This document shows positions 4,961-37,490 of a DNA stretch of 64,000 nt, piece after piece. A program made the translations under genes and the position numbers. The notes under the pieces are model-generated. The model was not told the DNA's origin. It did not search any database and saw only the letters and a program-made list of their open reading frames with translations. The first letter of the stretch is position 1; every line of letters begins with the position of its first letter. Source of the DNA: Actinomadura sp. DC4 (lineage in GTDB: Bacteria; Actinomycetota; Actinomycetes; Streptosporangiales; Streptosporangiaceae); the NCBI RefSeq assembly GCF_030406325.1, contig NZ_JAUEQY010000027.1, forward strand, positions 1 through 64,000. Reading direction: 5' to 3'.

Positions 4961-5033
4961 ACGGCCACGGCACGGCGATCCGGCCGGCGGCGGGGCGAAA
5001 ACCCGTCCGCCGGCCGGACGTCGTTGCGCCAGA

Positions 5034-6851
5034 ATGACTCCTGTGGACAAATCAGAATCAGGCGGCGGCAAAGCGTCTTTAGGGGCCGGCTGTAATCGCT
5101 TGGTGCTGTTGGCGTACCTGGTCTTATGGGACCTCGAACCGGCGCATCGGATCGAGCGGGCACTGCGCGTCGTCCGGCGTCGTGCCACCTGGGAGCAGGG
5201 GGACGGCCTCCGGCGGCGCGTGCTGAGACGCTGCGTCCGCACGAAGCACGGCGGCGAGTACCGGCCGCGCGGCTGGCCGGCGATGCGTCCGGCCGACGCC
5301 ACGCTCGACGCCGGAATGGCCGAGGCGATCAGGCGGCTGTCCCGCGAGGAGCGCGTCGCGTACGTCCTGCAGCGGGTCGAGGGCCTGACCCTCGATGAGA
5401 CGGTGGCGGAGCTGCGGCGCCTGCGGGTTCCCGAGTCCGGCGCCGTCGCCCGCCGGGCGGTCCGCTCCGTCGACTCCGTCGCGGAGCCGGACGCGCAGCG
5501 TACGGTGATCCTCGCCCTGGACCTGGAGACGGTCGCCCTGTCCCCGCGCTGGCCGTCGCGCCCGTCCCGCGGCCGGTGGGCGGTCGTGCTCGCGGGCGTG
5601 CTGGCGATGGCCGTGGCCGCGGCGGGCGTGGTGCTGTGGCTGCCGGAGGACCGGGCCCGGCTGCGCGTGAACACCCGCGTCGACGATGACGCCGTCGACC
5701 TCGACGAGTGGCCGGCCCGCGGGGATCGCGTGCACGACGGCGCGCTGCTCGGCCGCGCGCGCGACGCGTGGGAGGGCGTGCCGTACCGCCCCGGCGAGGA
5801 CGGGAGCCGGTACGGCTCGGTCACGCTGTACGGCCTCGGCGAGGTGCCCCACCCCCGGCCGGGACCGGGCACGCTCGTCGTGCTGTTCGCCGGCACCGTC
5901 GGGCCGGCCCGTACGGTGCTGCTCAGCGACGGCGGGCTCTTCGCGCTGTACTCCGAGGGCACTCGCGTCGGCAGGTCCCTGACCGTCGAGACCGCCCCGC
6001 TGGTGCCCGCGGGCCCGCTCGCCGTCGGCCCGCCGGAATTCGACCAGGGGACGCGGCAGGCGTACCTGCTTCCCCCCGGCACCCGGCACGCGGAGATCGC
6101 GACCCTCGCGGACACGCGGCCCGCGTGGCGGTCCGTGACGACGCGGGACGGGGTGGTCATCGTGCCGAACGTCCGTGGTTCTTCCGGCTGCCGCCGGACG
6201 CTGTTCCGCGTGTCCCGGCCGACGGTCTCCGGCGGCGCCGACTTCACCAGCGTCTACGCCGGCCTGGAGAACCCGGTGACGACCACGCGGATCGTGTGGC
6301 AGGCGCCGGGCGCCGAGACCGCTGCTCTTGACACCCGCCTGGCCCGCGACGTGATCTGCGAGGACGAGTACTTCTCCGCGCTCCACACGAGATCCGTCGC
6401 GCAGGTGGACGCGAAGACCTTCTGGCACGGCGCGCTTCCCGAGGGGCGCCATCGCGGCGCCTTCGTCAGCCTCGTCCTCACCTACGGCGCGGGGCAGCCC
6501 GACCCGCCGAAGAACCTGCCGGTCGAGAGCGAGGAGGGCCAGACCGTCTTCGTCGACCAGCCGCCGGACGCGCCTGGAACGGTGACGACCGAGGAGAGCG
6601 AGACCGACGAGAGCGGCGGGGACGCCGCGTACGCGACCGCCTCGTGGCACGGCGCGTCCGGCCGCTGGTACATGATCGCCGGCGGCGCGCCCGCCATCGC
6701 CCGCATGTGGACCTGGGGCAGGCGGAACGAGAAGGCGAACGGCCGGACCCTGATCGTCCGCGGCCCGATGAGCCACGCCACGGAGGAGCCGGAGTGGGAC
6801 CTACGCGTCGACGCCGTGACCGCGTCCGGCGAGCCGGGAAGCCTCCAGTGA
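5034..6851 (+). CDS. Large membrane protein with sigma-region-4-like N terminus
   Basis: About 605 residues from the ATG at 5034. The cytosolic N-terminal part contains AEAIRRLSREERVAYVLQRV and EGLTLDETVAEL, which looks like degenerate sigma-70 region 4. A single strong membrane segment follows (about residues 180-203), then a long extracellular part of roughly 400 residues ending near TASGEPGSLQ. The topology recalls fused sigma/anti-sigma or sigma-like sensor proteins, but no region 2 is recognisable. The extracellular part matches no family I can name. The sigma and partner genes just upstream suggest a shared signalling role. Confidence 0.7.
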   Translation: MTPVDKSESGGGKASLGAGCNRLVLLAYLVLWDLEPAHRIERALRVVRRRATWEQGDGLRRRVLRRCVRTKHGGEYRPRGWPAMRPADATLDAGMAEAIRRLSREERVAYVLQRVEGLTLDETVAELRRLRVPESGAVARRAVRSVDSVAEPDAQRTVILALDLETVALSPRWPSRPSRGRWAVVLAGVLAMAVAAAGVVLWLPEDRARLRVNTRVDDDAVDLDEWPARGDRVHDGALLGRARDAWEGVPYRPGEDGSRYGSVTLYGLGEVPHPRPGPGTLVVLFAGTVGPARTVLLSDGGLFALYSEGTRVGRSLTVETAPLVPAGPLAVGPPEFDQGTRQAYLLPPGTRHAEIATLADTRPAWRSVTTRDGVVIVPNVRGSSGCRRTLFRVSRPTVSGGADFTSVYAGLENPVTTTRIVWQAPGAETAALDTRLARDVICEDEYFSALHTRSVAQVDAKTFWHGALPEGRHRGAFVSLVLTYGAGQPDPPKNLPVESEEGQTVFVDQPPDAPGTVTTEESETDESGGDAAYATASWHGASGRWYMIAGGAPAIARMWTWGRRNEKANGRTLIVRGPMSHATEEPEWDLRVDAVTASGEPGSLQ

Positions 6852-7140
6852 GACGTCCCCAGAGGGCGGCGATGGGCGCCAGGACCTGGTCGGCGAAGTC
6901 GGCGAACGCGGCGGTCGGCTCGCCCACCGGCACCCGGGGCGGATGACCAGCACGAGCGAGACGCCCATCGCGCAGCTCCGCGGCGCGGCCTCGGCGATGA
7001 GCGTGACCTCGCCGGGGTCGCGCCGGGCCTCGGGCGCCGCGCGGCGGCACTCGGCGAAGAGCGGGGCCGGGTCGGCGACGGCCGGGCGGAACCCGTCCGC
7101 CGGCCGGCCGTGCGGCGGGCCGCCGCCACGCTGTGGCCGC
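6852..7140 (-). pseudogene. Possible decayed gene remnant in a 326-nt gap
   Basis: The stretch between the convergent neighbours has no intact gene. The minus strand reads GEVTLIAEAAPRSCAMGVSL followed by VLVIRP, then shifts frame near 6935-6942 into VPVGEPTAAFADFADQVLA. The joined reading looks like the end of a substrate-binding, LysR-like domain, and the 5' part is missing. It is a weak call based on amino-acid flavour and one frameshift. Confidence 0.3.
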
Positions 7141-7177
7141 CCATGACCAGCGGGGTCGGGAGACGGCAGGCCGGCCC

Positions 7178-8683
7178 TCATGCGGCGTCGTTCCGTCCGC
7201 CGAGGGAGCCGGCGAGCAGGCCGCCGAGGCGGTCGGCGACCGCGATCGTCGTCAGGTGGGTGTTCGCGCGGGGGATCAGCGGCATCAGCGAGGCGTCGGC
7301 GACATAGACGTTCGCCAGGCCGTGCACCCGCCCACGCTCGTCCGCCACGGACAGCGGGTCCGCCTCCGGGCCCATGGCGCAGGTCCCGACCGGGTGCCAG
7401 TAGCCGCTCGCGTCGGCGAGCACGGCCGAGTGCGCCCGCCGCCCGTCCCCCCACGGCGTCAGCCCGGCGAGCCCGGCCAGCGAGGCGGACCCGGCGAACT
7501 CGTGGGCCAGGTCGATGGCCTCCAGGACCACGCGCTCGTCGTGGCCGGCCGGGTCGGTGAAGAATCCGTGGTCGATCCGCGGCGGTGCCATCGGGTCCAG
7601 GGAGGCGGCCCGTACGGCGCCGCGCGAGCGGGGCGCCATCACGTACACGTGGAGCGAGGCCGACATCGGCCCGGTGTAGCGGCCCCGCGCGTCGAGGGCC
7701 GGGCCGGCCGCGGGCACCATGTGGACGTCCCAGTACTCGTCGGAGGCCAGGCTGGAGCGCGCCTTGACCAGGGTCTGGGCGAAGTAGGACTCCGCCGCGT
7801 CCGGCATCGCCGCGGCCAGGCCCGGCAGCGGGTCCAGCACCAGCGCGAGCGAGCCGTGGTCGATGAGGTTCGCCCCGACTCCGGGGAGCGGCTGCGTCAC
7901 CGGGGCGCCCAGGTCGCGCAGCGCCCGCTCGGGCCCGACGCCGCTGCGCATCAGCAGCGGCGGGTTGCCGTACGTCCCGCAGCACAGCGCGATGACGTCG
8001 GCGCTCAGCCGCCGCTCGCCGCCGTCCCCGACGGTGACCAGGCCGGTCGCCCGGTCGCCGGCGAACTCCAGCCGCGCGGCGTGGGAGTCGGCGATCACCT
8101 GGAGGTTCGGGCGGTCGCGGGCCGGATCGAGGTAGGCGAACCCCGCGTGCCAGCGGACGGAGCCGACCGCGTTGAGCGGCACCCAGCCGGCGCCCTCGTG
8201 GCCGGTCTCGTCGTTGACGTCCTCGAGGAAGGGCAGGCCGAGCCGGCCGGCGGTCTCGACGACCGCCTCGTGCCAGGGCGTGCGGTCGTGCGCCTCCGCC
8301 GGCCGTACGCGCAGCGTCCTCATCGCGTCGTGCAGGTGGGGGCGCAGCGTCCGGTCGTTCAGGGTGCCGCGGGAGTACGGCGACCACGCGTCGTAGTCCG
8401 GCGGCGCGCCCAGCGTCGCCCAGCAGCCGTTGTGCGCCGAGGACCCGCCGATCACGCGGGCGCGGGCGCAGCAGGGTTCGCCGGCGTCCCAGTCGTGCCC
8501 GCGCGCCGGCACACGCGCGTCGAGCAGTTCCGCAGGCCAGCGCCGGACGTCGAAGCGCCCGTAGTCCGGTCCAGCCTCGACCAGGCCGACACTGGTGCGC
8601 TCGTCCTCGCTGAGCCGGTTGGCCAGGACGCATCCCGCCGCACCGCCGCCGACGATGAGCACGTTGAAGTGCGTGGTTCGCAA
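7178..8683 (-). CDS. GMC-family FAD-dependent oxidoreductase
   Basis: A 501-residue flavoenzyme of the glucose-methanol-choline family. The FAD-binding Rossmann motif VGGGAAGCVLANRLSE begins near residue 9. The GMC signature region contains RVIGGSSAHNG. The C terminus has the catalytic histidine in WHPVGTC and the second active-site segment PRANTHLTTIAVADR. The TTG start at 8683 is chosen because a GGGAG ribosome site sits just upstream and it leaves 19 nt after the preceding gene. Other starts would overlap that gene. It is last in the four-gene minus operon and probably oxidises an alcohol of the cyclitol or sugar intermediate. Confidence 0.85.
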   Translation of the reverse strand: MRTTHFNVLIVGGGAAGCVLANRLSEDERTSVGLVEAGPDYGRFDVRRWPAELLDARVPARGHDWDAGEPCCARARVIGGSSAHNGCWATLGAPPDYDAWSPYSRGTLNDRTLRPHLHDAMRTLRVRPAEAHDRTPWHEAVVETAGRLGLPFLEDVNDETGHEGAGWVPLNAVGSVRWHAGFAYLDPARDRPNLQVIADSHAARLEFAGDRATGLVTVGDGGERRLSADVIALCCGTYGNPPLLMRSGVGPERALRDLGAPVTQPLPGVGANLIDHGSLALVLDPLPGLAAAMPDAAESYFAQTLVKARSSLASDEYWDVHMVPAAGPALDARGRYTGPMSASLHVYVMAPRSRGAVRAASLDPMAPPRIDHGFFTDPAGHDERVVLEAIDLAHEFAGSASLAGLAGLTPWGDGRRAHSAVLADASGYWHPVGTCAMGPEADPLSVADERGRVHGLANVYVADASLMPLIPRANTHLTTIAVADRLGGLLAGSLGGRNDAA

Positions 8684-8702
8684 GAATGTTCTCCCAGGGA
8701 GG

Positions 8703-9806
8703 TCAGACGGGTTCCAGATCGGCCAGGCCGGTGCGCGGGCTCCGTACGTCCTCACCGGCCGCCGCCACCGCGCCGCTCAGGCGCACGCCGGCCCGGACAC
8801 GGGCGTCGGGCAGCACCACCGACCGCTCCACCTCCGCGCCGGGCTCCACGACGCAGCCGGGGAAGAGCACGCTGGAGCGCACCGACGCGCCGGACGGCAC
8901 GTCGACGTCGCCGCCGACCAGGCTGCCCAGATCGGGGTCGAACCGCGGCGGGCCGCCGGTCAGCGTGCGCGGCAGGTCCCCGGGCGGCAGCGGGTGCGGC
9001 CGGTCGAGCAGCCGCATCTGCTCCAGGTGGTAGCGCTCCACGGTGCCGATGTCGGCCCAGTAGCCCGAGATCGGGTACGCCAGCACGTGCCGTCCCTCCT
9101 CGATCATCCGGGGCAGCACGTCGCGGCTGACGTCGTGCTGCCAGCCGTCCTCGCCGAGCGCGGCGAGCGAGGCGAGCACTTCCTCCAGCACCTCGGTACG
9201 GAACAGGCAGAACGCGGTGAACACCAGGTCCGAGGTCGGCTCGGCGGGCTTTTCGACCAGCGCGCGCACGCGCAGGTCCGCGTCGACCTCGACCATGCCG
9301 AACAGCCGGACGAAGCGCCGCTCGATGCGCTGCACGCCGATCGTCACGTCCGCGCCGGCCCGGCGGTGCGCCGCGAGCATCGGGCCGTAGTCGAAGGTGT
9401 AGACGTGGTCCGCGTGCTGGACGAGGACGTCGCGCGCGCCCGGCGCGAACAGGTATTCGGCGTTGTTGAGCAGGGCGTCGGCGGTGCCCGACTCGGCCGG
9501 CCGCGGCGGCAGGGGAGCGCCCGGCGGCGCGCCGCCGGAGCGCACCAGCGCGTCGTGCGGGCCGAAGTTGACCCGGATGCCGTTGCCGTCCCAGTGCGAG
9601 GCGAGATAGTCGAGCAGGTCCCGTTCGCGGTGCATCGACAGCAGCACCACCTCCGGGACGCCGGAGCGGACCGCGTTCGCCATGCTGAAGTCCAGCAGAT
9701 GGCAGGAGGCCGCGTACGGCACGAGCGGCTTGCACGTCTCGTCGGTCAGCCGGCCCATCCGCTCGCCGAGCCCGCCCGCGAGCAGCGCGGCGCGTACGTC
9801 CTGCAT
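8703..9806 (-). CDS. GlgC-like sugar (cyclitol) phosphate nucleotidyltransferase
   Basis: A 367-residue protein resembling ADP-glucose pyrophosphorylase. The nucleotide-binding loop LLAGGLGERMGRLTDE and the lysine in CKPLVP lie in residues 8-27. Mid-protein motifs are QHADHVYTFDY and GYWADIGTVERYH. The C terminus has a short left-handed beta-helix (VDVPSGASVRSSVLFPG and following). In validamycin-type pathways a GlgC homologue (ValB/VldB) makes the NDP-activated cyclitol. The setting between a cyclase/kinase and an OtsA-like transferase supports that role over glycogen synthesis. The ATG at 9806 is preceded by AGAGGA and lies 22 nt after the upstream stop. Confidence 0.82.
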   Translation of the reverse strand: MQDVRAALLAGGLGERMGRLTDETCKPLVPYAASCHLLDFSMANAVRSGVPEVVLLSMHRERDLLDYLASHWDGNGIRVNFGPHDALVRSGGAPPGAPLPPRPAESGTADALLNNAEYLFAPGARDVLVQHADHVYTFDYGPMLAAHRRAGADVTIGVQRIERRFVRLFGMVEVDADLRVRALVEKPAEPTSDLVFTAFCLFRTEVLEEVLASLAALGEDGWQHDVSRDVLPRMIEEGRHVLAYPISGYWADIGTVERYHLEQMRLLDRPHPLPPGDLPRTLTGGPPRFDPDLGSLVGGDVDVPSGASVRSSVLFPGCVVEPGAEVERSVVLPDARVRAGVRLSGAVAAAGEDVRSPRTGLADLEPV

Positions 9807-9828
9807 GGTTCCTCTCCGATCAGGATAA

Positions 9829-11790
9829 CTACCACGTACGACCCTGCGGGCTGCTCTGCGGCAGCAGGTCCCGCAGGAGGCGTACGGAGCCGGCGACGCT
9901 CTGCTCCCGAGGCAGCAGGGCGTCCTCGTGTTCGACGTAGAGCACGCCGCGGAAGTTGTCGTCCAGGAGCGCCGAAACGATCTGCGGCCACGGCAGGTCG
10001 CCGGCACCCAGGGCGCGGAAGCGGATCGGCGGGCCGGGGCCGTACCGGGACCAGCCCGCGCCGGGCGGCGCGTCCGCGCCGTGCCAGCGCTGCAGGTCCT
10101 TCGCGTGCGCCGCGCCGAGGCCGTCGCCCCAGCCGCGGACCGCCTCGACCGGGTCGTGCCCGGTGGCGGCCAGGTTGGCCGGGTCCACGCACAACCGGAC
10201 CGGCGCGTCCCCGGCCGCGTCGAGGAGCTGACGTGCGCTGATCCGGTCGTAGACGACCTGCTTGGGGTGCGGCTCGACGAGCACCGTGACGCCGTGCTCG
10301 GCGGCCAGCGCCAGGATCGGCGCCGCCTCCTCGCGCCAGGCGGCGATGTTGTCGGCCCAGCTCACGTCGCTGTGCCACCACGAGAGCCAGCGCGCGACGT
10401 CCGGCACGCCGAACATCAGCCGTGCGTGCCGCGCGCCGAGGTCGGCGGCCAGCCGTACGGTGTCCAGGCCGTGGCGCAGCGCGTGCTCGCGCTTGGCCGC
10501 GGCCGTGCCGGAGAGCACCGGGTCGGTGTGCGGGCCGTGCGGCCCGAGCAGCAGCTGGGTGTCCCTGCTGTTGCTCACGCAGTCCACGTGGGCGTCCGCG
10601 ACGGCCGCGCGCAGCTCGGCGCGGTGGTCGTCCTCGCGCGCCCAGCGCGCCAGGTCGACCAGGCCCGACGTGGTGTCGGTCGGCAGGTCGACCACGTCCG
10701 CCCCGACCCGCGCGGCGTGGTCGAGGGCGTCGACCAGCCCGGACCCGCCCCAGGCGGCCAGGCAGAGGCCGAGCGCGATGGGCGGGTCGCCGTCGTCGCG
10801 GCGGGCCGGCGGACGGGACCGCGCGGCGCGCGGCGGCGGGTCCAGGCCGACCAGCCACGCGGCGCCGGGCGGAGGCCGTACCTCCCCGTCCTGTACGCGG
10901 CTGCGCAGCGCCGCGTGCACCGAGGCCACCGGCTCGGTGACCGGCACGACCTCGGCCACGGACAGCTCGCCGCGCAGCCGCCGGTCGAGCTCGGCGAACA
11001 GCGGCGGGCAGCCGCGCAGCACGCCGCCGCCGGCGGCCACGGACCACGCGCCGGTGAGCCCGGCGCGGTCGCGCCCGGCACGTACGCCGAGGACGAGCTC
11101 GCCGACCGCCGTGGAGACCAGCTCGGCGGCCCACGCGTCGCCGTCCAGCCAGGCGTCGCAGACGGCCGGCGCGAGGGCGGCCACCGCGGCCTTGGGGAAC
11201 GCCTCGGCGGCCAGCTCGCGGGCGAGCTCGGCCGGCGAGCGGCCCGCGGTCAGCTCGGTGAGCCGGGCCCCGATCGCGGTCGCGGGCCCACGGCCGTCGC
11301 CGGCACGTACGGCGGCGCGCAGCCCGGCCAGGCCGAGCGCGAAGGCGCTGCCCTCGTCGCTGCCGAGGTACTCACACCCGCCGACCCGGCACGGGGCGCT
11401 CACGCCGTCGGAGGCGATGAACCCCGAGCCGGTGCCGCAGACCAGCACCACGCCGCGCCCCGCGAGCGGCGGCGCGACCAGCCACGGCACGGAGTCGTTG
11501 GAGACGAGCAGCCGCCCGCGCACGCCCGCCGCGCGGGCCAGGTCGCGCAGCCGGTCCGGTTCACCGCCGGCCTCGGCGAGGTCGACGGCCGCGGTGGCGA
11601 TCCACCCCGTACCCGGCTCGCCGCCGAGCGCCGCGGCGACGTCGCCGAGCAGCGCGCGCAGCGTCCGCGCCGCGGCCTCCGTGCCGACCGAGGCGGGGTT
11701 GACCGAGCCGTAGGTCCGCCGGGCGGTGGAGCCCGGGACGATCGCCGTCGTCGTGCTCCCGCCCGCGTCCACCGCCCAGAGTGAGGTCAC
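9829..11790 (-). CDS. Bifunctional BadF/BcrA-type kinase fused to sugar-isomerase TIM barrel
   Basis: A 653-residue fusion. Residues 1 to about 320 are a BadF/BadG-type (ASKHA fold) kinase: phosphate loop VDAGGSTTT near the start, second phosphate loop LVCGTGSGF, then GSDEGSAFALG and adenosine motif VAAGGGVL. Residues about 345-650 are an AP-endonuclease-2/xylose-isomerase-like barrel with candidate metal ligands in VLVEPHPKQ, LCVDPANLA, GAAHAKD and LYVEHED. The GTG start at 11790 overlaps the cyclase stop (GTGA), so both are coupled. Inference: the kinase phosphorylates the cyclitol made by the cyclase and the barrel isomerises or epimerises it. A Pro/Arg-rich linker joins the halves and no frameshift is seen. 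Confidence 0.8.
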   Translation of the reverse strand: MTSLWAVDAGGSTTTAIVPGSTARRTYGSVNPASVGTEAAARTLRALLGDVAAALGGEPGTGWIATAAVDLAEAGGEPDRLRDLARAAGVRGRLLVSNDSVPWLVAPPLAGRGVVLVCGTGSGFIASDGVSAPCRVGGCEYLGSDEGSAFALGLAGLRAAVRAGDGRGPATAIGARLTELTAGRSPAELARELAAEAFPKAAVAALAPAVCDAWLDGDAWAAELVSTAVGELVLGVRAGRDRAGLTGAWSVAAGGGVLRGCPPLFAELDRRLRGELSVAEVVPVTEPVASVHAALRSRVQDGEVRPPPGAAWLVGLDPPPRAARSRPPARRDDGDPPIALGLCLAAWGGSGLVDALDHAARVGADVVDLPTDTTSGLVDLARWAREDDHRAELRAAVADAHVDCVSNSRDTQLLLGPHGPHTDPVLSGTAAAKREHALRHGLDTVRLAADLGARHARLMFGVPDVARWLSWWHSDVSWADNIAAWREEAAPILALAAEHGVTVLVEPHPKQVVYDRISARQLLDAAGDAPVRLCVDPANLAATGHDPVEAVRGWGDGLGAAHAKDLQRWHGADAPPGAGWSRYGPGPPIRFRALGAGDLPWPQIVSALLDDNFRGVLYVEHEDALLPREQSVAGSVRLLRDLLPQSSPQGRTW

Positions 11791-12959
11791 CGGCCCCCCA
11801 CCGGGACGTCGGCGGAGACGTTGCGCAGGAGCGCGGCCCGCACCTCGTCCTCGGTGACGTCCTCGGCGATCAGCGTGGTGCCCAGCTCGACCGGGAGCAC
11901 GAAGCGCAGGCTGCCGTCCCGGATCTCGCGGATCTTGTCCAGCGCGCCGAGCACGTCCTCCACCGGAGGCACGGACCGGAGCTGTTCCAGGCGTACCGGC
12001 AGGCCGAGACCGGTGATCAGGCCGACGATGCGGTCGGCGAGCGCGGGGTCGAGCAGGCCGCGGGCGCGGGCGATGTCCACCGCGATGACCATGCCGAACG
12101 CGACCGCCTCGCCGTGCAGCACGGGGCCGTACCCGGTGGTCGTCTCGACGGCGTGACCGACGGTGTGCCCGAAGTTGAGCGGGCGGCGCAGGTCCACCTC
12201 GTACGGGTCGCGGCCGACGAGTTCGGTCTTGATCGTGCTGGCCGCGCTCACGAGCGGGCCGACCGCCGAAGAATGGCACTGAACCAGCGCGCCGGCGTGT
12301 CGCTCGATGTATTCGAAGAGCTCGGGCGAGGCGATTATCGCCTTTTTCAAAGCCTCGGCCAGACCGGCGCGCGCCTGCCGCGGGCCGAGGGTCTGCAGGA
12401 ACTCCAGGCAGGAAATGACGGCGCGTGGCTGGTAGAACGCGCCGACGAGGTTCTTGGCCGCATTGTGGTCGACCGCGACCTTGCCGCCGATGCCGGCGTC
12501 GACCTGGGCGAGCAGCGTCGTGGGAACGTTGACGTACGGGACGCCGCGCATGAAGGCGCTCGCGACCCAGCCGACGGTGTCCATGATCATTCCGCCGCCG
12601 AGCGCGACGACGACGTCGCGCCGCGCGAAGCCGATCTGGGCGAGCCAGTCGATGAGAGCGTAGGCCGTGTCGAGGCTCTTGCTCTTCTCGCCCGGGTCGA
12701 CGATCTTGCTGCCCAGCAGCAGCCCGCGCTCGCCGAGCGTCTCGGTGAGCCGGTACGCGGGCAGGGCGGCGACGGTCCGGTCGGTGATGACCGCGGCCCG
12801 GCGGCCGTCGAGTTCACCGAGCAGCACCTCGGCCGCCGCGGCGGTGTCGGGCACGACGTGGATGCGGTAGGTGTCCAGCCGTTCGAGGTTCACCTCGATG
12901 GCGGACGAGGTGGCCGACAAGGGGATCCGATCGCGAACGACGTAGCTTTTCTCGGCCAT
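11787..12959 (-). CDS. Sugar-phosphate cyclase of the dehydroquinate-synthase superfamily (2-epi-5-epi-valiolone-synthase-like)
   Basis: A 390-residue NAD/metal enzyme of the DHQS fold. Visible motifs are VPTTLLAQVDAGIGGKVAVD, NLVGAFYQP, GLAEALKKAI, KTELVGRDP and LNFGHTVGHAVE with LHGEAVAFG carrying the metal ligands. Near the C terminus, where dehydroquinate synthases carry a DKK segment, this protein reads IRE, which argues against ordinary shikimate function. Beside a kinase, a nucleotidyltransferase and an OtsA-like transferase, cyclisation of sedoheptulose 7-phosphate to a C7 cyclitol is the best reading. A secondary-metabolite DHQS cannot be excluded. The ATG at 12959 follows GGGAG. It is first in the minus operon. 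Confidence 0.83.
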   Translation of the reverse strand: MAEKSYVVRDRIPLSATSSAIEVNLERLDTYRIHVVPDTAAAAEVLLGELDGRRAAVITDRTVAALPAYRLTETLGERGLLLGSKIVDPGEKSKSLDTAYALIDWLAQIGFARRDVVVALGGGMIMDTVGWVASAFMRGVPYVNVPTTLLAQVDAGIGGKVAVDHNAAKNLVGAFYQPRAVISCLEFLQTLGPRQARAGLAEALKKAIIASPELFEYIERHAGALVQCHSSAVGPLVSAASTIKTELVGRDPYEVDLRRPLNFGHTVGHAVETTTGYGPVLHGEAVAFGMVIAVDIARARGLLDPALADRIVGLITGLGLPVRLEQLRSVPPVEDVLGALDKIREIRDGSLRFVLPVELGTTLIAEDVTEDEVRAALLRNVSADVPVGGR

Positions 12960-13179
12960 CCGTCTCCCTAACAAGATCAACTAAACGGGTCAGGCTGGGT
13001 TAGGCGCCACCTCGGCCGGTGCGAGATTTATCTTCTCGGATAAATGTTTATCAAACACGATATCCGGCCAAAGACGTGATGATGCATGCGAAGGCAGGCG
13101 CGGTTACCGGCGCCAGACGACTGTTCTCCCCGGTACGTACGGCAATCGCCGGACGTAGCCGATCAAGATCAAAGAACGA
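12960..13179. promoter_or_regulatory. Divergent promoter region of the cyclitol cluster
   Basis: A 220-nt AT-richer spacer between the two divergent biosynthetic operons. It holds the tandem dyads at 13027-13064 and probably both promoters. No cluster regulator gene lies nearby in the window. Confidence 0.6.
13027..13064. promoter_or_regulatory. Two tandem TTTATC-N6-GATAAA-type dyads (operator candidate)
   Basis: TTTATC ttctcg GATAAA at 13027-13044 (extended by one pair to ATTTATC/GATAAAT at 13026-13045) is followed by TTTATC aaacac GATATC at 13047-13064. The dyad centres are 20 bp apart, two helical turns, so two dimers could bind side by side on one face. The regulator is unknown. Confidence 0.55.
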
Positions 13180-14127
13180 ATGGCCGCCGCGATCCTCCGG
13201 GGCCGGCCCGTGCTGACGATGATCGTCGGCAGCGGCTATCTCGGCGGGCGCATCGGAGCCCGCATGCGCGCGCTCGGCGACCGGACGGTGCTCTGCTCCC
13301 GTCGCCCCGCGGGTACGGCTGCGCAGTGGCACGAGCTGGACGTACGCGACGCGCGGGCCTGCCGGGAGACCGTACGCGACGTCGCGCCCGACGCCCTGGT
13401 CGTCGTGCACGGGCCCTCCGACATCACCTGGTGCGAGGCGCACCCCGAGGAGACGATGGCCGCCCACGAGGCCGGCGCCGCGAACCTCGCGGCGGCCGCC
13501 GGCGGCCGTCACATCCTGCTGATCTCGACCGACAACGTCTTCGCCGGCGACCGGCACAGCTACGGCGAGTCCGACGAGCCCGCGCCCGTCAACGCGTACG
13601 GCCGCGCCAAGCTCGCCGGCGAGCGGACCCTGCTCGACACCGGCACCGCGCTGGCGCTGCGCGTCAGCCTCGTCTACGGCTGGGACCCCGACGGGCACCG
13701 GCCCAACTACTTCACCACCTGCGTACGCGACCTGCGCGCCGGCCGTACGGTCGCCGCGCCCGCCGACCACTGGAACACCCCCGTCCTGGTGGACGACGTC
13801 GCCGCGTGGTCCGCCGCGCTGCTGCGCGCCGGGCGTACGGGCGTGCTCCACCTGGGCGGACCCGAGCGCCTGTCCCGCCACGAGTGGGCCGGCCGGATCG
13901 CCAAGGGCCTCGGACTGGACGACGCCCGGATCCGCCCGGCCGGCAAGGCCGGGACCGCGTACGCCTGCCGGCCCGACAACGCCTGCCTGCACAGCGAGCG
14001 GGCCGAGAGTCTGCCCGAACTCGCCGGGCTGCGGCCCGTGGACGTCGACGAGGGGACCCGCCGCCTGGCCGCGGCGGCGCTCGCCGGCGGAACGGCCGCC
14101 CCCGAACCTCGATCCGTGGAGGAATGA
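13180..14127 (+). CDS. NAD(P)-dependent sugar reductase/epimerase (RmlD-like)
   Basis: A 315-residue extended short-chain dehydrogenase. The Rossmann loop is MIVGSGYLGGRIGARM. An ISTDNVFAGD strand and the catalytic YxxxK in NAYGRAKLAGE (Tyr near residue 139) follow, as in dTDP-4-dehydrorhamnose reductases. It probably reduces or epimerises a keto intermediate of the cyclitol/sugar pathway. The ATG at 13180 has only a weak ribosome site. GTG 13210 and ATG 13219 are alternatives that would still keep the nucleotide-binding motif. It is first gene of the plus-strand biosynthetic operon, ending with a GGAGGA that serves the next gene. Confidence 0.8.
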   Translation: MAAAILRGRPVLTMIVGSGYLGGRIGARMRALGDRTVLCSRRPAGTAAQWHELDVRDARACRETVRDVAPDALVVVHGPSDITWCEAHPEETMAAHEAGAANLAAAAGGRHILLISTDNVFAGDRHSYGESDEPAPVNAYGRAKLAGERTLLDTGTALALRVSLVYGWDPDGHRPNYFTTCVRDLRAGRTVAAPADHWNTPVLVDDVAAWSAALLRAGRTGVLHLGGPERLSRHEWAGRIAKGLGLDDARIRPAGKAGTAYACRPDNACLHSERAESLPELAGLRPVDVDEGTRRLAAAALAGGTAAPEPRSVEE

Positions 14128-14129
14128 GA

Positions 14130-15554
14130 GTGAGCAAGCGCGTCTTCCTCGCCAGCAAGCGCGCGGTGGTCAGCTACGCCCCTGAGCCGGACACCGGCCA
14201 GCTGCGCGCGTGGCTCGCCCCCGGCGGCACCGGCAACGTGGTCGCCGAACAGGCCGGCTACCTGGACGTGGCCTGGATCGTCAGCGCGGACAGCGACGAC
14301 GACCACCGGGCCGCCGTGGAGAACCCCGACGGCATGCGCATCGAGCTGCCCTCGGGGCGCGGCGTACGGCTCCACCAGCTGCGCCACGACCGCGAGACCT
14401 TCCGCGTCGTCCAGAACTTCCTGACCGCCGAGCTGATGTGGGCCGGCAACAACTACGGCTGGGACCGCTGGACCCGGCCATCCTTCGGCGCGGAGACCTA
14501 TGCGGCCTGGGAGCGGTTCGGGGAGTTCACCGAGGACTTCGCCGCCGAGATGCTGCGTCGCTCGGCGGACGAGCCCGACCCGGTCTTCCTCGTCCACGAC
14601 TACCAGCTCGTCTGCGTGCCGGCGCGGCTGCGGGCGCGGCGCCCGGACGCGCCGATCCTGTTGTTCGTGCACATCCCGTGGCCGTCCGCGGACTACTGGC
14701 GCATCCTGCCGCGGGCGATGCGGACCGGTGTGCTGGAGGGGATGCTCGCCGCCGACACGATCGGCTTCTTCGCCCGCCGCTGGAGCGCGAACTTCCTGGC
14801 CTCCGTCGCCGACCTGCTGCCCGACGCCGAGGTCGACGTCGCGGCGGGCACCGTACGGCGGAACGGCCACGTCACGAACGTGCGCACCCAGCCGCTCGGC
14901 TACAGCCCCGAGACGCTGCACCGCCGCGAGGCGCGGCTGCCCGACGGCATCGCCGAGTGGGCCGGCGACCGGCGGCTCGTCGTGCACTCCGGGCGTACCG
15001 ACCCGATCAAGAACGGCGAGCGCGCGGTCCAGGCGTTCGTCCTGGCGGTCCAGGGGGACGAGCGGCTGCGCGACGTGCGGATGCTGGTGCGGATGAACCC
15101 CAACCGGCTCTACGTCGAGGCCAACGCCGAATACCAGCGGCGCGTGGAGAAGGCCGTCGCCGAGGCCAACGCCGAGCTGGGCCCCGACACCGTGCGCGTG
15201 CACTGCGACAACGAGGTCGGCCACACGTTCGGCTGCTTCGAACGGGCCGACCTGCTGGTGTTCAACTCGACCGTGGACGGCCAGAACCTCAGTGTCTTCG
15301 AGGCGCCGCTCGTCAACGAGCGCGACGCCGACGTCGTGCTCTCGGAGATGGCGGGCGCGGCCGAGATCCTCGCCCCGGTGTGCCGTACGGTCAACCCGTA
15401 CGACCTCGTGGAGCAGGCCGACGCGATCGCCGCCGGTCTGCTGGCCCCGGCGGAGGAACGCGCCGAGGCGGCGCGCGCACGCCGGGAGACCGCGCGGCCG
15501 TGGACGCTGGAGGCGTGGGTCACCGAGCAGCTCGCGAGCCTGGACGTACGGTGA
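14130..15554 (+). CDS. GT20 trehalose-6-phosphate-synthase-like (pseudo)glycosyltransferase
   Basis: A 474-residue GT-B enzyme related to OtsA and to the pseudoglycosyltransferases ValL/VldE. Donor-side motifs are kept: VHDYQL, VHIPWPSADYW, SGRTDPIKN (Arg and Lys that hold the donor phosphates in OtsA) and DGQNLSVFEAPL followed by LSEMAGAAE. The acceptor-side segment, WAGNNYGWDRWTRPSF, departs from the usual T6PS sequence. In validamycin biosynthesis such an enzyme joins an NDP-cyclitol to an aminocyclitol phosphate without an ordinary glycosidic bond, which fits this neighbourhood. GTG 14130 is preferred to ATG 14124 because GGAGGA at 14118-14123 would touch the ATG but is 6 nt from the GTG. 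Confidence 0.82.
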   Translation: MSKRVFLASKRAVVSYAPEPDTGQLRAWLAPGGTGNVVAEQAGYLDVAWIVSADSDDDHRAAVENPDGMRIELPSGRGVRLHQLRHDRETFRVVQNFLTAELMWAGNNYGWDRWTRPSFGAETYAAWERFGEFTEDFAAEMLRRSADEPDPVFLVHDYQLVCVPARLRARRPDAPILLFVHIPWPSADYWRILPRAMRTGVLEGMLAADTIGFFARRWSANFLASVADLLPDAEVDVAAGTVRRNGHVTNVRTQPLGYSPETLHRREARLPDGIAEWAGDRRLVVHSGRTDPIKNGERAVQAFVLAVQGDERLRDVRMLVRMNPNRLYVEANAEYQRRVEKAVAEANAELGPDTVRVHCDNEVGHTFGCFERADLLVFNSTVDGQNLSVFEAPLVNERDADVVLSEMAGAAEILAPVCRTVNPYDLVEQADAIAAGLLAPAEERAEAARARRETARPWTLEAWVTEQLASLDVR

Positions 15555-16813
15555 TGGACGCCACCGACGCCCGGCGGTTCGCCTACTACGAGCTCGGTGA
15601 CGCCGAGCTCGTCCACGGCGAGGGAGTGCGGGTCTGGGACACCGAGGACCATGAGTACCTCGACTGCGTGTCCGGCACGTTCAACCTCGTCCTGGGGCAC
15701 AACCACCCCGCCGTGCTGGCCGCGGTCCGCGGCCAGCTCGACGACCTGGTGTTCGCCAGCTCGTCGTTCCGCACCTCCGCCACCGACGAGGTGATGCGGC
15801 TGCTCGTGGAGATGAGCCCGCCCGAGCTCACCCGCGTGAACCTCCGCAGCTCCGGAGGCTCCACGGCCAACGAGGGCGCCATCAAGATCGCACAGTGGCT
15901 CACCGGGAAGCGGGACGTCATCGTGCCCTTCCGCGGGCACGTGGGCCAGAGCATGGCCGCCACCAGCTACAACGGCACGTCGCGGATGCGCGCGCCGTTC
16001 CCGGCGCAGATGCCCGGCGCGCTGCACGTCCCCGGGCCGTACTGCTTCCGCTGCTTCTACCGGCAGACTCCGGACACCTGCGGCATGTGGTGCGTCGACC
16101 GGATCGAGGACTTCATCACGTACGCGAGCTCGGGCAGCGTCGCGGCGATGATCATCGAGCCGATCAGCGGGGTGGGCGGCAACGTCGTGCCGCCGCAGGG
16201 CTACCTGGAGGCGCTCAAGGAGTTCTGCGAGGAGCGCGAGATCATCCTGATCTTCGACGAGAACCAGACCGGGCTGGGCCGTACGGGCGAGCTGTTCGCC
16301 GCCGACCACTTCGCTGTGACGCCGCACGTCATGACACTGTCCAAGGGGCTGACCGGCAGCGGCTTCCCGCTCGCGGCGATCCTCACCGAGGAACGCCTGG
16401 TCGGCATGCCGCGCTCGATGCACGGGTTCACCTACGGCGGCCACACGCTGTCGGCGGCGGCCGCCGTGGCGACGCTGAACGAGGTGCGGAAGCCGGCGTT
16501 CCTCGCCGGGGTGCGCGCCTCGGGGACCGTGCTCCTGGACCGCCTCCGCGCGCTGCGGCCCGACTTCCCCTGCGTCGGCGACGCGCGCGGCGTCGGCCTC
16601 ATGCTCGGCGTCGAGCTGGTCGAGCCCGACGGCGGCCCGTCGCCCCGGCTCGCCACCGCCCTCAACAAGGCGCTGACCGACCTGAGGGTGATCACGCGGG
16701 TGTCGGAGCACGGCCAGGGCAACGTCATCGAGCTGCGCCCGCCGCTGGTGCTGTCGGTCGAGGACGCGAACCTGGTCGCGGACCGCTTCGGCGAGGCGCT
16801 GGAGACGCTTTGA
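15554..16813 (+). CDS. Class III PLP-dependent aminotransferase
   Basis: A 419-residue fold-type I aminotransferase. The PLP-binding motif is LIFDENQTGLGRTG followed by the Schiff-base lysine near residue 264 in TLSKGLTGSG. A four-cysteine insert (C164, C167, C176, C180) is of the kind found in some members of this class. It should transfer an amino group to a keto-cyclitol or keto-sugar, the role of ValM in validamycin biosynthesis. The ATG at 15554 overlaps the transferase stop; GTG 15551 is an alternative. The stop overlaps the TTG start of the dehydrogenase, so all four genes are coupled. Confidence 0.85.
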   Translation: MDATDARRFAYYELGDAELVHGEGVRVWDTEDHEYLDCVSGTFNLVLGHNHPAVLAAVRGQLDDLVFASSSFRTSATDEVMRLLVEMSPPELTRVNLRSSGGSTANEGAIKIAQWLTGKRDVIVPFRGHVGQSMAATSYNGTSRMRAPFPAQMPGALHVPGPYCFRCFYRQTPDTCGMWCVDRIEDFITYASSGSVAAMIIEPISGVGGNVVPPQGYLEALKEFCEEREIILIFDENQTGLGRTGELFAADHFAVTPHVMTLSKGLTGSGFPLAAILTEERLVGMPRSMHGFTYGGHTLSAAAAVATLNEVRKPAFLAGVRASGTVLLDRLRALRPDFPCVGDARGVGLMLGVELVEPDGGPSPRLATALNKALTDLRVITRVSEHGQGNVIELRPPLVLSVEDANLVADRFGEALETL

Positions 16814-17859
16814 CCCGGTCCCAGGAGACCGGACCGGCGACGCGGGAGACCGCGCCGACGAGCGTCGAGCTGACCCCGTCGGGGCCGCGGCTCTCCCACG
16901 GGCCGCCCCGGCGCCCCGACACCGCCGACGCCGTCCTGGTCGAGCCCGCGCTGGTCGGCGTCTGCCGCTCCGACCTCAAGGAGATCGGCGGACGCCGGCC
17001 CGGGCCCAGCCAGTTCGGGCATGAGCTGGTCGGCGTGGTGACGGACAGCTCGACGCCGCTGCTGCCGGCCGGATCACGGGTCTGCCTGGACCCGAACGTC
17101 CCGCTGGACCGCGGGACCGGCTTCGCCCGCCGGATGTGGGCGGGCGGCTCGCCCGGCGCGCTCGTACGGGCCCTCCCGGTCGCGCCGGCCGGGACGGGGG
17201 AGCGGCGCCTGGTCTTCGCCGAGCCGCTGGCCTGCGCCGCGCACTGCCTCACGATGGCCGGCCGCCACCTGCGCGCCGGCGGCCTGCGCGGCCTACGGGT
17301 GTGCGTGCTCGGCGCGGGGATGGCCGGCGTCCTGATCGCCCGCCTGGCCGAGACGGCCGGCGCCGAGGTGCTCATCGCGAACCGCGACGCCGACCGGCTG
17401 GACTTCCTCCGCGCGCGGGACATGCTCCCGTCGCTGGGCGGGGCGCGGCTCGGCGAGGCGGACCCGGGCCACGACGTCGTCGTGGTGGCGACCAGCTTCG
17501 TCCTGCCCGAACTCCTCGAACGCGCGCTTAACCTCCTACGCCGGGACGGGCTCGTGATGCTGTACGGCGGCACGGCCGCCGGCGACCGGCTGCCGGGCCT
17601 TTCCTGCGACCTGGACCGGGTGCGGCGGGCGGAGCTGGTGCGGGAGACGTCGTGGCGGGGCCGCCCGGTGCGGGTGGGAGGCAGCTACGGCACGACGAGC
17701 GAGGACTTCGCCGACGCGTTGCGCGTCCTGGCCGACACCCCCGACGGCCTGGGCGTGGAACGCCTGATCACCGCCGAGGTCTCACTGCCGGGCCTGCCCG
17801 ACACCCTGCGCCGCCTGGCGTCGGACCGCCACCTCGGCAAGGTCCTGGTGCGCCCGTAA
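16810..17859 (+). CDS. Zinc-type medium-chain alcohol dehydrogenase
   Basis: A 349-residue dehydrogenase. Catalytic zinc ligands are the Cys in GVCRSDLKE and the His-Glu in FGHELVG. The NAD-binding motif is VCVLGAGMAGVLIARLAE. The four-cysteine structural zinc lobe is missing. It starts at TTG 16810, overlapping the aminotransferase stop (TTGA) with a GGAG ribosome site, so it is translated with that enzyme. A cyclitol dehydrogenase (ValN-like) that supplies a ketone or reduces a double bond is a plausible role. It is last gene of the plus operon. Confidence 0.8.
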   Translation: MTRSQETGPATRETAPTSVELTPSGPRLSHGPPRRPDTADAVLVEPALVGVCRSDLKEIGGRRPGPSQFGHELVGVVTDSSTPLLPAGSRVCLDPNVPLDRGTGFARRMWAGGSPGALVRALPVAPAGTGERRLVFAEPLACAAHCLTMAGRHLRAGGLRGLRVCVLGAGMAGVLIARLAETAGAEVLIANRDADRLDFLRARDMLPSLGGARLGEADPGHDVVVVATSFVLPELLERALNLLRRDGLVMLYGGTAAGDRLPGLSCDLDRVRRAELVRETSWRGRPVRVGGSYGTTSEDFADALRVLADTPDGLGVERLITAEVSLPGLPDTLRRLASDRHLGKVLVRP

Positions 17860-17886
17860 CGCCTGCGTACGGAACGAAGGCGGGGA

Positions 17887-17907
17887 CCCGCGCCGGCTCG
17901 GCGCGGG
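17887..17907 (+). terminator. Hairpin after the plus biosynthetic operon
   Basis: CCCGCGCC (17887-17894), a 5-nt loop and GGCGCGGG (17900-17907) form an 8-bp GC stem 27 nt after the last stop. No T run follows, as is usual in high-GC actinomycetes. Confidence 0.45.
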
Positions 17908-18076
17908 ATCCGCCGGGCGGCGGACCCGTCCGGCGCGCTCGCGCGATCCGCGCACTCCGGTCGCGGCGCGGCGGCGGGCCGTACGGCGGCGGGGCCGGGC
18001 GCCTCGGGCGGCCCGGTGTTCGCGGACGTGGCCCTGCCGGCCCGGGACCGGTCGGGGTGCCGGCTGTGGCGGGGGG

Positions 18077-18745
18077 TCAGGGGGTGCCGACGAGGCGGAG
18101 GACGGCGGCGAGGCCGCGGGGCGTACGGGCGTCGCGTTCGGTCGGCAGCAGGTAGACCGGAAGGCCCGCGCGCACCGCCGCGCCGTCCTTCACCGGGTCG
18201 TCGCCGACGTAGAGGGTCCGGCCCGGCTCCGTGCCCAGCCGCGCGCATGCCAGCGCGAACAGGGCGGGGTCGGGCTTGGCGAGGCCGTGCTCGCAGGACA
18301 GGACGACCGCGTCCAGCGCGGCCAGCGCGCCCACCCGGCCGAACGCCGGCCGGATGTCCCAGCCGATGTTGCTCAGCACCCCGACCGGGACGTTCCTGCC
18401 GTGCAGCTCCTCCAGCACCGGCACCGTGTCCGGGTAGGGCCGCCACGCGCCAGGGTCGGTCAGGCACTCGTACAGCGCCTCGGTCAGCTCGGGCCCCAGG
18501 CCGGACTCGGCGATGAGCTTCGTCCAGATCGTCCGGTGCGCCTCCTGGGACAGGTCGCAGCCCTCACGGGCCGCGAAGCCCTCGGGGGAGTCCACGTGCG
18601 CGAGCGCCTGGCGGATGACCTCGCCGGCCGCCGCCTCGTCCAGCGACACCCCGTGCCGGGACGCGGCGGCGACGAGAGCCGGCGGGCCGAGCACCCCCGT
18701 GTCGTCGAACAGCGTCCCGGAGAAGTCGAACAGGACCGCTTCCAC
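18077..18745 (-). CDS. HAD-superfamily phosphatase
   Basis: A 222-residue HAD-IA hydrolase. Motif I FDFSGTLFDD lies near the N terminus with the nucleophile Asp. Motif II is in VLSNIG, motif III Lys in GLAKPDP, and motif IV in YVGDDPVKDG. GTG 18745 is chosen because a GGAG lies 7 nt upstream; GTG 18751 and 18760 are alternatives. It sits convergent to the cyclitol operon. A HAD phosphatase (ValO/VldH) removes phosphate after pseudoglycosyl transfer in validamycin synthesis, so it may belong to the cluster. Its separate transcription leaves that open. Confidence 0.82.
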   Translation of the reverse strand: MEAVLFDFSGTLFDDTGVLGPPALVAAASRHGVSLDEAAAGEVIRQALAHVDSPEGFAAREGCDLSQEAHRTIWTKLIAESGLGPELTEALYECLTDPGAWRPYPDTVPVLEELHGRNVPVGVLSNIGWDIRPAFGRVGALAALDAVVLSCEHGLAKPDPALFALACARLGTEPGRTLYVGDDPVKDGAAVRAGLPVYLLPTERDARTPRGLAAVLRLVGTP

Positions 18746-18951
18746 GCTCACTCCGTTCACGGCGACAGCATAAGGAACGCCTTCACTGACACAAGGCCGA
18801 AGGTGACCGCGACTACCGTCCGCCGCCGAACCGGCCGGTAGCGGCCATCGGCGCGTCATCGGCCATTGCCGTGAATCACCATCAACTCGTTTATAAACAC
18901 CAGGCCAAGTGGTGACTGTTCCGAGGAGCCCGCCGCGGCGGGGGTCGGCGC

Positions 18952-19740
18952 GTGGCACCGCTGGATAGGCTGTCGCCGCGAGAGCAGGTCGAGCGGGTCA
19001 GGGGCAGAGGATGGCCGGGTTGGCCGGTGGACATTAACCGCAGCGTCCGCGTCTGGGGACTCCTGGCGGACGAGGCCCGCAGGCGCGGGGGGCCGCTCTC
19101 CGTCGGCGTGGCGTGCCACGCCGCGGCGCGGGTTCTCTCGGCCGAAGGGGTGTCGGTGGCGACGGTCGCACCCGGTGACGTCTACGTGTCGGTCTTCGCC
19201 ACCAACGGCCTCGGGCGGCGGCTCGAAGAGCTCCAGTCCACGCTGGGAGAGGGGCCCGGTCTCCAGTCCTACGTCGACGGCGCGCCCGTCCTCACCTCCG
19301 ACCTCGACACGGGCGACAAGCGCTGGCCGCTGTTCGGCTCGGGCGCGGTCGAGATGGGCGTACGGGCGCTGTTCGCCTTTCCCCTGCGGTCGGGAACCGT
19401 CTCGATCGGTGTGTTCGAAGTCCATCGCGGAGGGCCGGGGCCCATGACCCCGGTCGAACTCGGCGACGCCCTCGTGCTCGCCGACGTGATCTCGATCCTC
19501 CTGCTGTCCCCCGAGTCCTCCGGCGGCCGTGACTTCATCGACGACGCGATCTCCTCCGACCATCATGCCGAGGTCTACCAGGCCACCGGCATGGTGTCGG
19601 TGCATCTCGGCGTGAGCCTGGCCGACGCGCTCGCTCGCCTGCGGGGGTACGCCTTCGTCCATTCGCAGTCCATTTCCGCCGTCGCCCACGAGATCGTGCT
19701 GGGCCGCCTGCGGCTAGACGAAAGTGAGACCGATGACTGA
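18952..19740 (+). CDS. GAF-ANTAR domain regulator (first of three)
   Basis: A 262-residue protein with a GAF-like sensor (about residues 40-185) and a C-terminal ANTAR RNA-binding domain (about 205-255) that includes EVYQATGMVSVHLGVSLADA. ANTAR proteins bind paired hairpins in nascent RNA and prevent termination. The GTG start has no strong ribosome site, so a slightly later start is possible. Two similar genes follow on the same strand, 42 nt and 125 nt apart. Confidence 0.8.
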   Translation: MAPLDRLSPREQVERVRGRGWPGWPVDINRSVRVWGLLADEARRRGGPLSVGVACHAAARVLSAEGVSVATVAPGDVYVSVFATNGLGRRLEELQSTLGEGPGLQSYVDGAPVLTSDLDTGDKRWPLFGSGAVEMGVRALFAFPLRSGTVSIGVFEVHRGGPGPMTPVELGDALVLADVISILLLSPESSGGRDFIDDAISSDHHAEVYQATGMVSVHLGVSLADALARLRGYAFVHSQSISAVAHEIVLGRLRLDESETDD

Positions 19741-19782
19741 GCCAGCGCACCGCGCACCACGGCGTCCGGTCGTTCAGGGGAG

Positions 19783-20523: not shown

Positions 20524-20648
20524 CCCGGAGCTCACGGGTAGTATCGGAGCACCGAGAGTTCGTCGTGAGCGCAGGAAGTTCCGATCGCGTTCCGTTCCCG
20601 GCGCTGTGAGACAGCCGGGGCCGATCCTCGGCAAAGGGACCCTGTCAC

Positions 20649-37487: not shown

Positions 37488-37490
37488 GGC

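Follow-up and report, generated by a model that had tools for sequence, protein, structure and literature searches.

We analyzed a 64,000-nt stretch of the genome of Actinomadura sp. DC4 (RefSeq assembly GCF_030406325.1, contig NZ_JAUEQY010000027.1, positions 1 to 64,000 of the forward strand; hereafter, the window) and found a gene cluster of the validoxylamine type whose front half is not orthologous to that of validamycin; its chemistry is predicted throughout. We read it as a probable variant of the validoxylamine cluster in which an alternative front half would lead via 2-epi-valiolone to an unglucosylated validoxylamine-type trehalase inhibitor. Its late module centers on a GT20 protein of the ValL/VldE type, and its cyclase belongs to a clade that resembles 2-epi-valiolone synthase (EVS) and is separate from 2-epi-5-epi-valiolone synthase (EEVS).

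The cluster was compared with that of Streptomyces hygroscopicus NBRC 13472 (locus L027), which is of the validamycin type by its ValA (743 bits to 4p53) and VldE (94%) and to whose genes single val letters were assigned by order and family. It was also compared with 22 named loci, which are relatives found through the VldE-type GT20, using best non-overlapping matches at 1e-12. Papers are cited by PMC number for the parts of their text available to us; PMC3424136 groups the validamycin genes as valABCD and valKLMN.

Organization of the cluster

Eight open reading frames (ORFs) form two divergent operons, at 7178-12959 on the minus strand and 13180-17859 on the plus strand, and a HAD phosphatase gene lies beyond them. 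The frame plot agreed with these ORFs. The intergenic gaps are 19, 22, and -4 bases in the minus operon and -4, -1, and -4 bases in the plus operon, with 220 bases between the two. An initial annotation, made from the sequence alone, had described two divergent operons with a nearby phosphatase, and every enzyme class that it named was located as follows. Its count of eight biosynthetic genes holds for the ORFs; however, kinase and TIM barrel share a single ORF of 653 aa rather than being two genes.

7178..8683, minus: GMC-family FAD oxidoreductase (Pfam GMC N and C domains), an optional partner with a putative tailoring role
8703..9806, minus: GlgC-like nucleotidyltransferase in the predicted role of ValB (cyclitol 1-phosphate to GDP-cyclitol); below the TIGR02091 (glgC) cut-off, 48% identical to the ValB-like gene of L027
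9829..11790, minus: BadF/NagK-type kinase (about 10800-11790) and AP_endonuc_2 TIM barrel (about 9829-10800) in a single ORF (Pfam; solved relatives 8zo3 and 8ro4)
11787..12959, minus: sugar-phosphate cyclase of the EVS-like clade, putative 2-epi-valiolone synthase (tree support 100/100; loop motif IRxIR[DA]G where AroB has DKK)
12960..13179, no strand: divergent intergenic region with a conserved block, a candidate operator (comparison with the nearest Actinoallomurus)
13180..14127, plus: RmlD-like NAD(P) reductase, ValK orthologue (Pfam RmlD; 57% to the L027 gene upstream of GT20); the start may be 13219
14124..15554, plus: GT20 pseudoglycosyltransferase, ValL/VldE orthologue by sequence (712 bits to VldE 3vdm versus 150 to OtsA 5lqd; 20 of 21 ligand residues)
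15554..16813, plus: class-III PLP aminotransferase, ValM orthologue (Pfam; 69% to L027)
16810..17859, plus: zinc-type alcohol dehydrogenase with a TTG start, ValN orthologue (Pfam ADH_N; 56% to L027)
18077..18760, minus: HAD phosphatase, proposed to remove the 7'-phosphate (Pfam HAD; homologue in 15 of the 22 named loci)

The GT20 protein and the late module

Judged by its sequence, the GT20 protein is an orthologue of the ValL/VldE-type pseudoglycosyltransferases. It is 68% identical to VldE (3vdm; 712 bits), as against 150 bits to OtsA (5lqd). At the 21 ligand-contact positions of VldE taken from PMC3441724, 20 residues were identical, the sole change (D362E) being at a backbone contact, and both the guanine-specific contacts (R321, N323, and T366) and the contact to the acceptor (N325) are conserved. 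R321, N323, N325, and T366 are all absent from the genome's four other GT20s (one has serine at 366, like six ValL-type rows), which are only 25-34% identical to the window protein. No trehalose-phosphatase (otsB) match was found among the nine cluster proteins with Pfam. We therefore rejected trehalose-6-phosphate synthase (OtsA) as the identity of this protein, given its VldE-like identity and binding site, which the four other GT20s do not share. The pseudoglycosyltransferase core of a pseudo-oligosaccharide cluster, as proposed in the initial annotation, is thus supported by VldE orthology and by the binding site; by sequence identity, the protein sides with VldE and not with trehalose-phosphate synthases beside an otsB gene.

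The reductase, GT20, aminotransferase, and alcohol dehydrogenase genes share their order with L027 at 57, 67, 69, and 56% identity, respectively. A GT20 gene of this type occurred in six of the eight Actinoallomurus genomes surveyed, the present one included, and the window protein was 88-94% identical to that of the named Actinoallomurus contigs. By this identity and by the survey of the genus, we assign the window to Actinoallomurus. We predict that its GT20 protein couples GDP-valienol and validamine 7-phosphate through a C-N bond. Formation of a C-O bond, giving a true trehalose-type or bis-valienol product, has a precedent in ValL, which itself also yields 1,1'-bis-valienol 7-phosphate (PMC12041759). 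In 19 of the 22 named loci, however, a class-III aminotransferase gene comes next, and the remaining three contigs stop short of this position; we consider C-O coupling very unlikely.

The sugar-phosphate cyclase

The cyclase tree was built from 86 distinct rows (46 AroB, 4 aDHQS-like, 2 DOIS-like, 9 EEVS-like, 3 DDGS-like, and 22 EVS-like) of a 98-row alignment that contains repeats of one gene in two loci; L038, L051, and L053 (AroB, with DKK) stand outside this set. The aDHQS and DOIS labels are our assumption, drawn from signature residues and not from named proteins. The 22 EVS-like rows, including the window cyclase, formed one clade (100/100), apart from a group (98/88) that joined AroB, aDHQS-like, and DOIS-like rows and from one (100/100) that joined EEVS-like and DDGS-like rows. 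AroB alone was weakly supported as a group (49/10). The tree program flagged long branches, and we make no claim as to the side on which the EVS-like clade joins. A second cyclase of the same genome, on contig C36, grouped with AroB; the window cyclase did not, so that its grouping with housekeeping AroB in a genome with no other aroB, a case that would have told against the initial annotation, was not observed.

The loop motif IRxIR[DA]G was present in all 34 EVS-like rows (22 distinct) and in none of the 46 AroB rows, all of which carry DKK; DKK was absent from the window cyclase and from every EVS-like row examined. ValA has HRDG and DDGS has TRDG at this position, and the EVS-like loop therefore resembles those of sedoheptulose-7-phosphate cyclases. 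EVS-like rows retain K250, R264 (except in L025), N268, H271, and H275 of 3-dehydroquinate synthase (DHQS). The window cyclase has K, D, N, G, and H at the tested positions, and EEVS-like rows fall in another clade. We rejected EEVS as its identity on the basis of the separate clade and the different signature residues, and aDHQS and DOIS on the basis of tree placement. Of the validamycin-type sugar-phosphate cyclase that had been annotated, a sugar-phosphate cyclase other than AroB stands, but it belongs to the EVS-like clade and not to EEVS.

Asamizu reportedly described, in 2012, the EVS proteins of Actinosynnema mirum and Stigmatella aurantiaca, the A. mirum gene being Amir_2000. We presume genome G146 to be A. 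mirum; its EVS-like gene at 2.216 Mb would suit a number of about 2000. This gene, 68% identical to the window cyclase by its product, is the one EVS-like gene among four cyclase-family matches in G146, and its cluster (L132) contains genes for HAD, alcohol dehydrogenase, aminotransferase, GT20, reductase, MFS, EVS, kinase, TIM barrel, and nucleotidyltransferase. EVS is named in PMC4426668, with Asamizu 2012 among the works cited for it, and according to PMC5133447 the clade of confirmed EVS would pass for DHQS but for biochemical data. The EVS-like clade fits this description and is presumably the clade of EVS. We predict that the window cyclase forms 2-epi-valiolone from sedoheptulose 7-phosphate. 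In the predicted structure (pLDDT, a model confidence score, 85.3), ValA ranked 15th in Foldseek but had the highest query TM-score (0.83) among the best 50 matches listed.

Several properties of the cyclase weigh against its assignment to EVS. Its equation with tested EVS depends on the presumed A. mirum label together with PMC5133447 and PMC4426668. It keeps the DHQS residues K250, R264, N268, and H275; its nearest solved relatives by sequence are DHQS, as is the closest match of its predicted structure by Foldseek E-value; and TIGR01357, the AroB model, gives it a score of 309.7 where the cut-off is 305. Among four more EVS-like cyclases (L125, L141, L143, and L146), two fit the loop motif and L141 and L143 are one substitution off (the deviating loops being IKQIRDG and VRKIRDG), although DKK occurs in none of the four. 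The retained core residues and a score barely above the cut-off would also suit a duplicated DHQS of aromatic metabolism with coincidental neighbors. We regard this as highly improbable, since EVS-like rows form a separate clade (100/100), none of those examined has the DKK loop, an AroB-grouping cyclase is present elsewhere in the genome, and EVS-like cyclases keep the same partner genes across genera.

The NCBIfam model TIGR01357 passes EVS-like cyclases: L132 (9570-10793) scored 320.9, and all 16 EVS-like genes in one set of loci passed. Automatic annotation would therefore name such proteins 3-dehydroquinate synthase and hide them.

The fused kinase and TIM barrel

Among the 18 other loci that carry both the kinase and the TIM barrel, the two are in one ORF in nine and in separate ORFs in nine. 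The kinase belongs to the Pfam family BcrAD_BadFG, and its nearest solved relative is the MurNAc/GlcNAc kinase NagK (8zo3). In the TIM barrel, E159, D189, H215, and E273 were invariant in 17 of 17 sequences, and their spacing is presumably like that of the metal site of keto-sugar isomerases. The TIM-barrel model (pLDDT 85) matched SCO6571, the hydratase AtHYD, the isomerase Art22, and many 3-epimerases in Foldseek.

By analogy, we propose that the fused protein acts as a cyclitol 7-kinase and a keto-cyclitol 2-epimerase or dehydratase; the TIM barrel may be an epimerase, as AcbO would suggest, or a dehydratase, as AtHYD and IolE would. The BadF kinase and the TIM barrel take the position occupied in validamycin by ValC, a ROK kinase, and ValD, a VOC epimerase. 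No ROK kinase ValC was found in the window by tblastn at 1e-12, and the S. hygroscopicus ValD-like VOC protein had no match in the 64 kb under the same conditions, which bears out the annotated absence of a VOC-type epimerase. The TIM-barrel isomerase had been regarded as an addition to the validamycin set; instead, together with the kinase, it stands in for ValC and ValD.

Among the nearest solved relatives of the TIM barrel are AtHYD (8ro4), a 2-hydroxy-3-keto-glucal hydratase, and, as a weaker match, IolE (3cny), which acts on a keto-inositol by dehydration. A role as a dehydratase (valiolone to valienone), with epimerization elsewhere or unneeded, is accordingly possible, though we lean away from it. 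Many keto-sugar 3-epimerases of the same fold were found by Foldseek, and a further cluster of the same genome (L032, described below) has no TIM barrel. In addition, the fusion parallels the order AcbM then AcbO; because these enzymes act in succession (PMC9200736), a fused kinase and epimerase would fit consecutive steps.

Conservation of the partner genes and exchange of modules

In the 22 named loci, the BadF kinase, the aminotransferase, and the dehydrogenase were each found in 19, and the TIM barrel in 17. The TIM barrel was missing from two of the 19 kinase-bearing loci, L010 and L012, both of which are stretches that end before its position. None of the 19 EVS-type loci had ROK or VOC matches at 1e-12. 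In contrast, L027, L029, and L030 combine an EEVS-like cyclase with a ROK kinase, and a VOC protein occurs in L027 only. An EVS-like cyclase was present in 15 of the 19 fetched stretches; L021 and L023 carry it farther on the same contig, and for L024 and L026 it is in the same assembly but on a different contig. At 1e-75, EVS-like cyclases are rare: they occurred in 2 of 394 genomes of the class (counting our own), 3 of 392 in the genus to which G420 belongs, and 14 of 297 of the family of Actinosynnema pretiosum. The EVS-like genes of G900, G657, and G1100 are those of L031, L111, and L025. Twenty-six of 28 EVS-like genes lie within about 20 kb, on the same contig, of a ValL-like (23) or TreT-like (3) gene, and for the remaining two, a ValL-like gene is present in the same assembly but on another contig. 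This count is biased toward GT20, since most loci were found through it; the cyclase-based surveys added L133 and L150. We rejected a chance neighborhood, because the same partners recur with GT20 across the 22 named loci.

In a concatenated tree of the late module (24 taxa; L025, with too few genes, was left out), L027 fell inside the EVS-type clusters as sister to the Streptomyces loci L028 and L031 (100/100), within a nine-row clade (99/97). Holding the EVS late modules together was rejected by the approximately unbiased (AU) test (p=1.3e-5), and the single trees of GT20 and the aminotransferase likewise placed L027 with L028 and L031 (SH-aLRT 100). The nucleotidyltransferase tree, in contrast, put the EVS-type rows on one side of a branch (100/100), and a group of L027, L028, and L031 was rejected (AU p=2.05e-4). 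The groups for the AU tests were picked after the trees had been seen, and these p-values were not pre-registered. Since the late module nests L027 while the nucleotidyltransferase separates it, we conclude that whole modules were exchanged. The validamycin cluster was likely derived from an EVS-type ancestor, in a sample that holds one actinobacterial EEVS cluster.

L029 and L030 (Noviherbaspirillum) represent a betaproteobacterial relative with an EEVS-like cyclase, a ROK kinase, and a VldE-like GT20 at 48% identity; the VOC protein of L027 had no match in either locus. In L134 (Allokutzneria, 6140-15091), genes for a radical SAM protein, a second class-III aminotransferase, an ABC transporter, an APH-like protein, and a GT4-type glycosyltransferase lie between the EVS and PfkB kinase genes.

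Proposed pathway and product

In the proposed route, the EVS-like cyclase would convert sedoheptulose 7-phosphate to 2-epi-valiolone, which the BadF kinase domain would phosphorylate at C7. The fused TIM barrel, with the fold of metal-dependent keto-sugar epimerases, would then invert C2 (or dehydrate), and dehydration would yield valienone 7-phosphate, canceling the C5 difference from the validamycin route. From there, one arm would lead through the reductase and the nucleotidyltransferase to GDP-valienol, and the other through the alcohol dehydrogenase and the aminotransferase to validamine 7-phosphate. The GT20 pseudoglycosyltransferase would join the two arms through a C-N bond, and the HAD enzyme would remove the phosphate. 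Because no ValG homologue was found in the window (the L027 GT2 as the query, 1e-12), we expect the pathway to end at a pseudodisaccharide of the validoxylamine type, which would inhibit trehalase. The initial annotation had suggested a different product, perhaps a glycosidase inhibitor, which is not the best reading: EVS and EEVS clusters have the late module in common and have exchanged it, which makes a common intermediate, valienone 7-phosphate, and a trehalase inhibitor of the validoxylamine type likelier than a glycosidase inhibitor of an unrelated kind.

Three observations beyond the cyclase count against this route. The GMC gene has no place in it; a separate 1-kinase was not seen in the window cluster, PfkB being present in only 5 of the 22 named loci; and the nearest solved TIM-barrel relatives include the hydratase 8ro4 and IolE, so that the epimerase role may fail.

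The same enzymes could also act with the C5 hydroxyl of 2-epi-valiolone kept, giving a pseudodisaccharide with valiolamine or valiolol in place of valienol or validamine; such products would be validoxylamine B- or G-like. By product name, EVS differs from EEVS at C5, the front half is replaced as a block, and some clusters contain GMC oxidoreductase and luciferase-like genes, all of which would suit this product. However, the binding site of the window GT20 is that of VldE, and two Streptomyces EVS clusters encode GT20s at 81 and 83% identity to VldE, pointing to an unchanged donor and acceptor. We regard retention of the hydroxyl as unlikely and favor valienone 7-phosphate as the intermediate.

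The validoxylamine-type reading gives EVS a plausible genomic setting in named strains (Actinoallomurus iriomotensis, Actinosynnema pretiosum, and Streptomyces minutiscleroticus). If true, it suggests that one antifungal scaffold is made via two non-orthologous, exchanged front halves, which would offer new parts for the making of C7N aminocyclitols.

EVS clusters with a TreT-like protein

A second EVS-like gene of the same genome, whose product is 55% identical to the window cyclase, lies in L032 (contig C50, 8159-16214), in the order alcohol dehydrogenase, EVS, HAD, RmlD and BadF in one ORF, TreT-like GT4, and MFS. In L133 (G420, 7909-18799), genes for MFS, GMC, EVS, TIM barrel, and kinase diverge from those for RmlD, TreT-like protein, and HAD, and L150 (G1058, 4767-10678) has six genes in one row (EVS, HAD, RmlD, kinase, TIM barrel, and TreT-like). 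No homologues of GT20 or of the window aminotransferase or nucleotidyltransferase were found in the fetched stretches of these three loci; L150 has a class I/II aminotransferase gene about 2 kb away on the opposite strand. At 1e-30, none of the seven other genomes of Actinoallomurus had a relative of the L032 TreT-like protein. A cyclase tree of 33 rows (without L114) did not unite the TreT-type rows in one clade, and L125 paired with the GT20-type L085 (99/99); the coupling enzymes therefore seem to have been exchanged behind a shared front half.

We put forward, tentatively and with some doubt, that a portable "pseudo-trehalose" cassette, which EVS opens and which adds a BadF kinase, an RmlD-like reductase, and usually a TIM barrel, may have been joined to two trehalose-forming types of enzyme. 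The OtsA-like ValL with an aminotransferase would give N-linked validoxylamines, and a TreT-like GT4 without a class-III aminotransferase would give O-linked pseudo-trehaloses. Pseudoglycosyl or cyclitol-glucosyl transfer would then have arisen a second time, independently, and validamycin would descend from such a cassette through substitution of an EEVS front half for that of EVS. If their product is of that kind, the TreT-type clusters bear on the question raised in PMC12041759 as to whether transaminase-free pseudo-oligosaccharide clusters exist.

Other features of the cluster and its surroundings

Homologues of the GMC gene occurred in 3 of the 22 named loci (L011, L021, and L023), as well as in L133 and L152; the GMC genes of L134 and L135 are the very genes of L023 and L021 and were counted once. 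We chose TTG at 8683 as the GMC start, the ORF opening at 8755. In the divergent region (12960-13179), the block around ATCTTCTC..TAAATGTTTATCAAACACGA is nearly invariant across the four closest Actinoallomurus loci and may be an operator; no sigma-70-like site or promoter consensus was found there. Genes with GAF/ANTAR and STAS domains (18952-21807) immediately follow the HAD gene and mark the edge of the cluster. Farther along, at 29706-39400, are Mce/MlaD and MlaE permease genes and an ABC ATPase gene of the ordinary lipid-transport type.

Comparison with known systems

The window cluster resembles the validamycin A cluster in its divergent operon pair, its ValK, ValL, ValM, and ValN orthologues in one operon, its GlgC-like ValB, and its HAD phosphatase gene. 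It differs in having an EVS-like cyclase instead of EEVS, a BadF kinase instead of ROK, a TIM barrel instead of VOC, and an extra GMC gene; L027 also carries a ROK kinase, a two-domain glyoxalase-fold protein, GT2, and MFS. With the acarbose cluster (AcbC, AcbM, AcbO, AcbL, AcbN, AcbU, AcbJ, AcbR, and AcbS, likened by description and not by AcbM or AcbO sequence), it shares the logic of cyclase, 7-kinase, 2-epimerase, dehydration, GlgC-like nucleotidyltransferase, and pseudoglycosyltransferase (PMC9200736, PMC7081202); however, AcbS is described as GT5-like, as against GT20 for the window enzyme, and the coupling partner is another one. Homologues of the trehalose synthase TreT (GT4) replace GT20 in L032, L133, and L150, whereas the window cluster has none.

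In the parts of the open-licence literature available to us, EVS was not tied to a pseudoglycosyltransferase cluster, although subscription papers may already show the A. mirum cluster, and nothing in that open-licence literature joined Actinoallomurus with a cyclitol. According to PMC12041759, cyclases "similar to valA" accompany ValL homologues in clusters; the text seen does not distinguish EVS from EEVS. PMC5133447 treats 2-epi-valiolone as a putative precursor of uncharacterized metabolites. If G146 is A. mirum, its EVS shares the cyclase clade of the window (68%), and its genome also has the cluster (L132). The EVS of A. mirum is, in the literature seen, a source of a precursor without a known end product, whereas the window EVS-like gene sits in a pseudoglycosyltransferase cluster.

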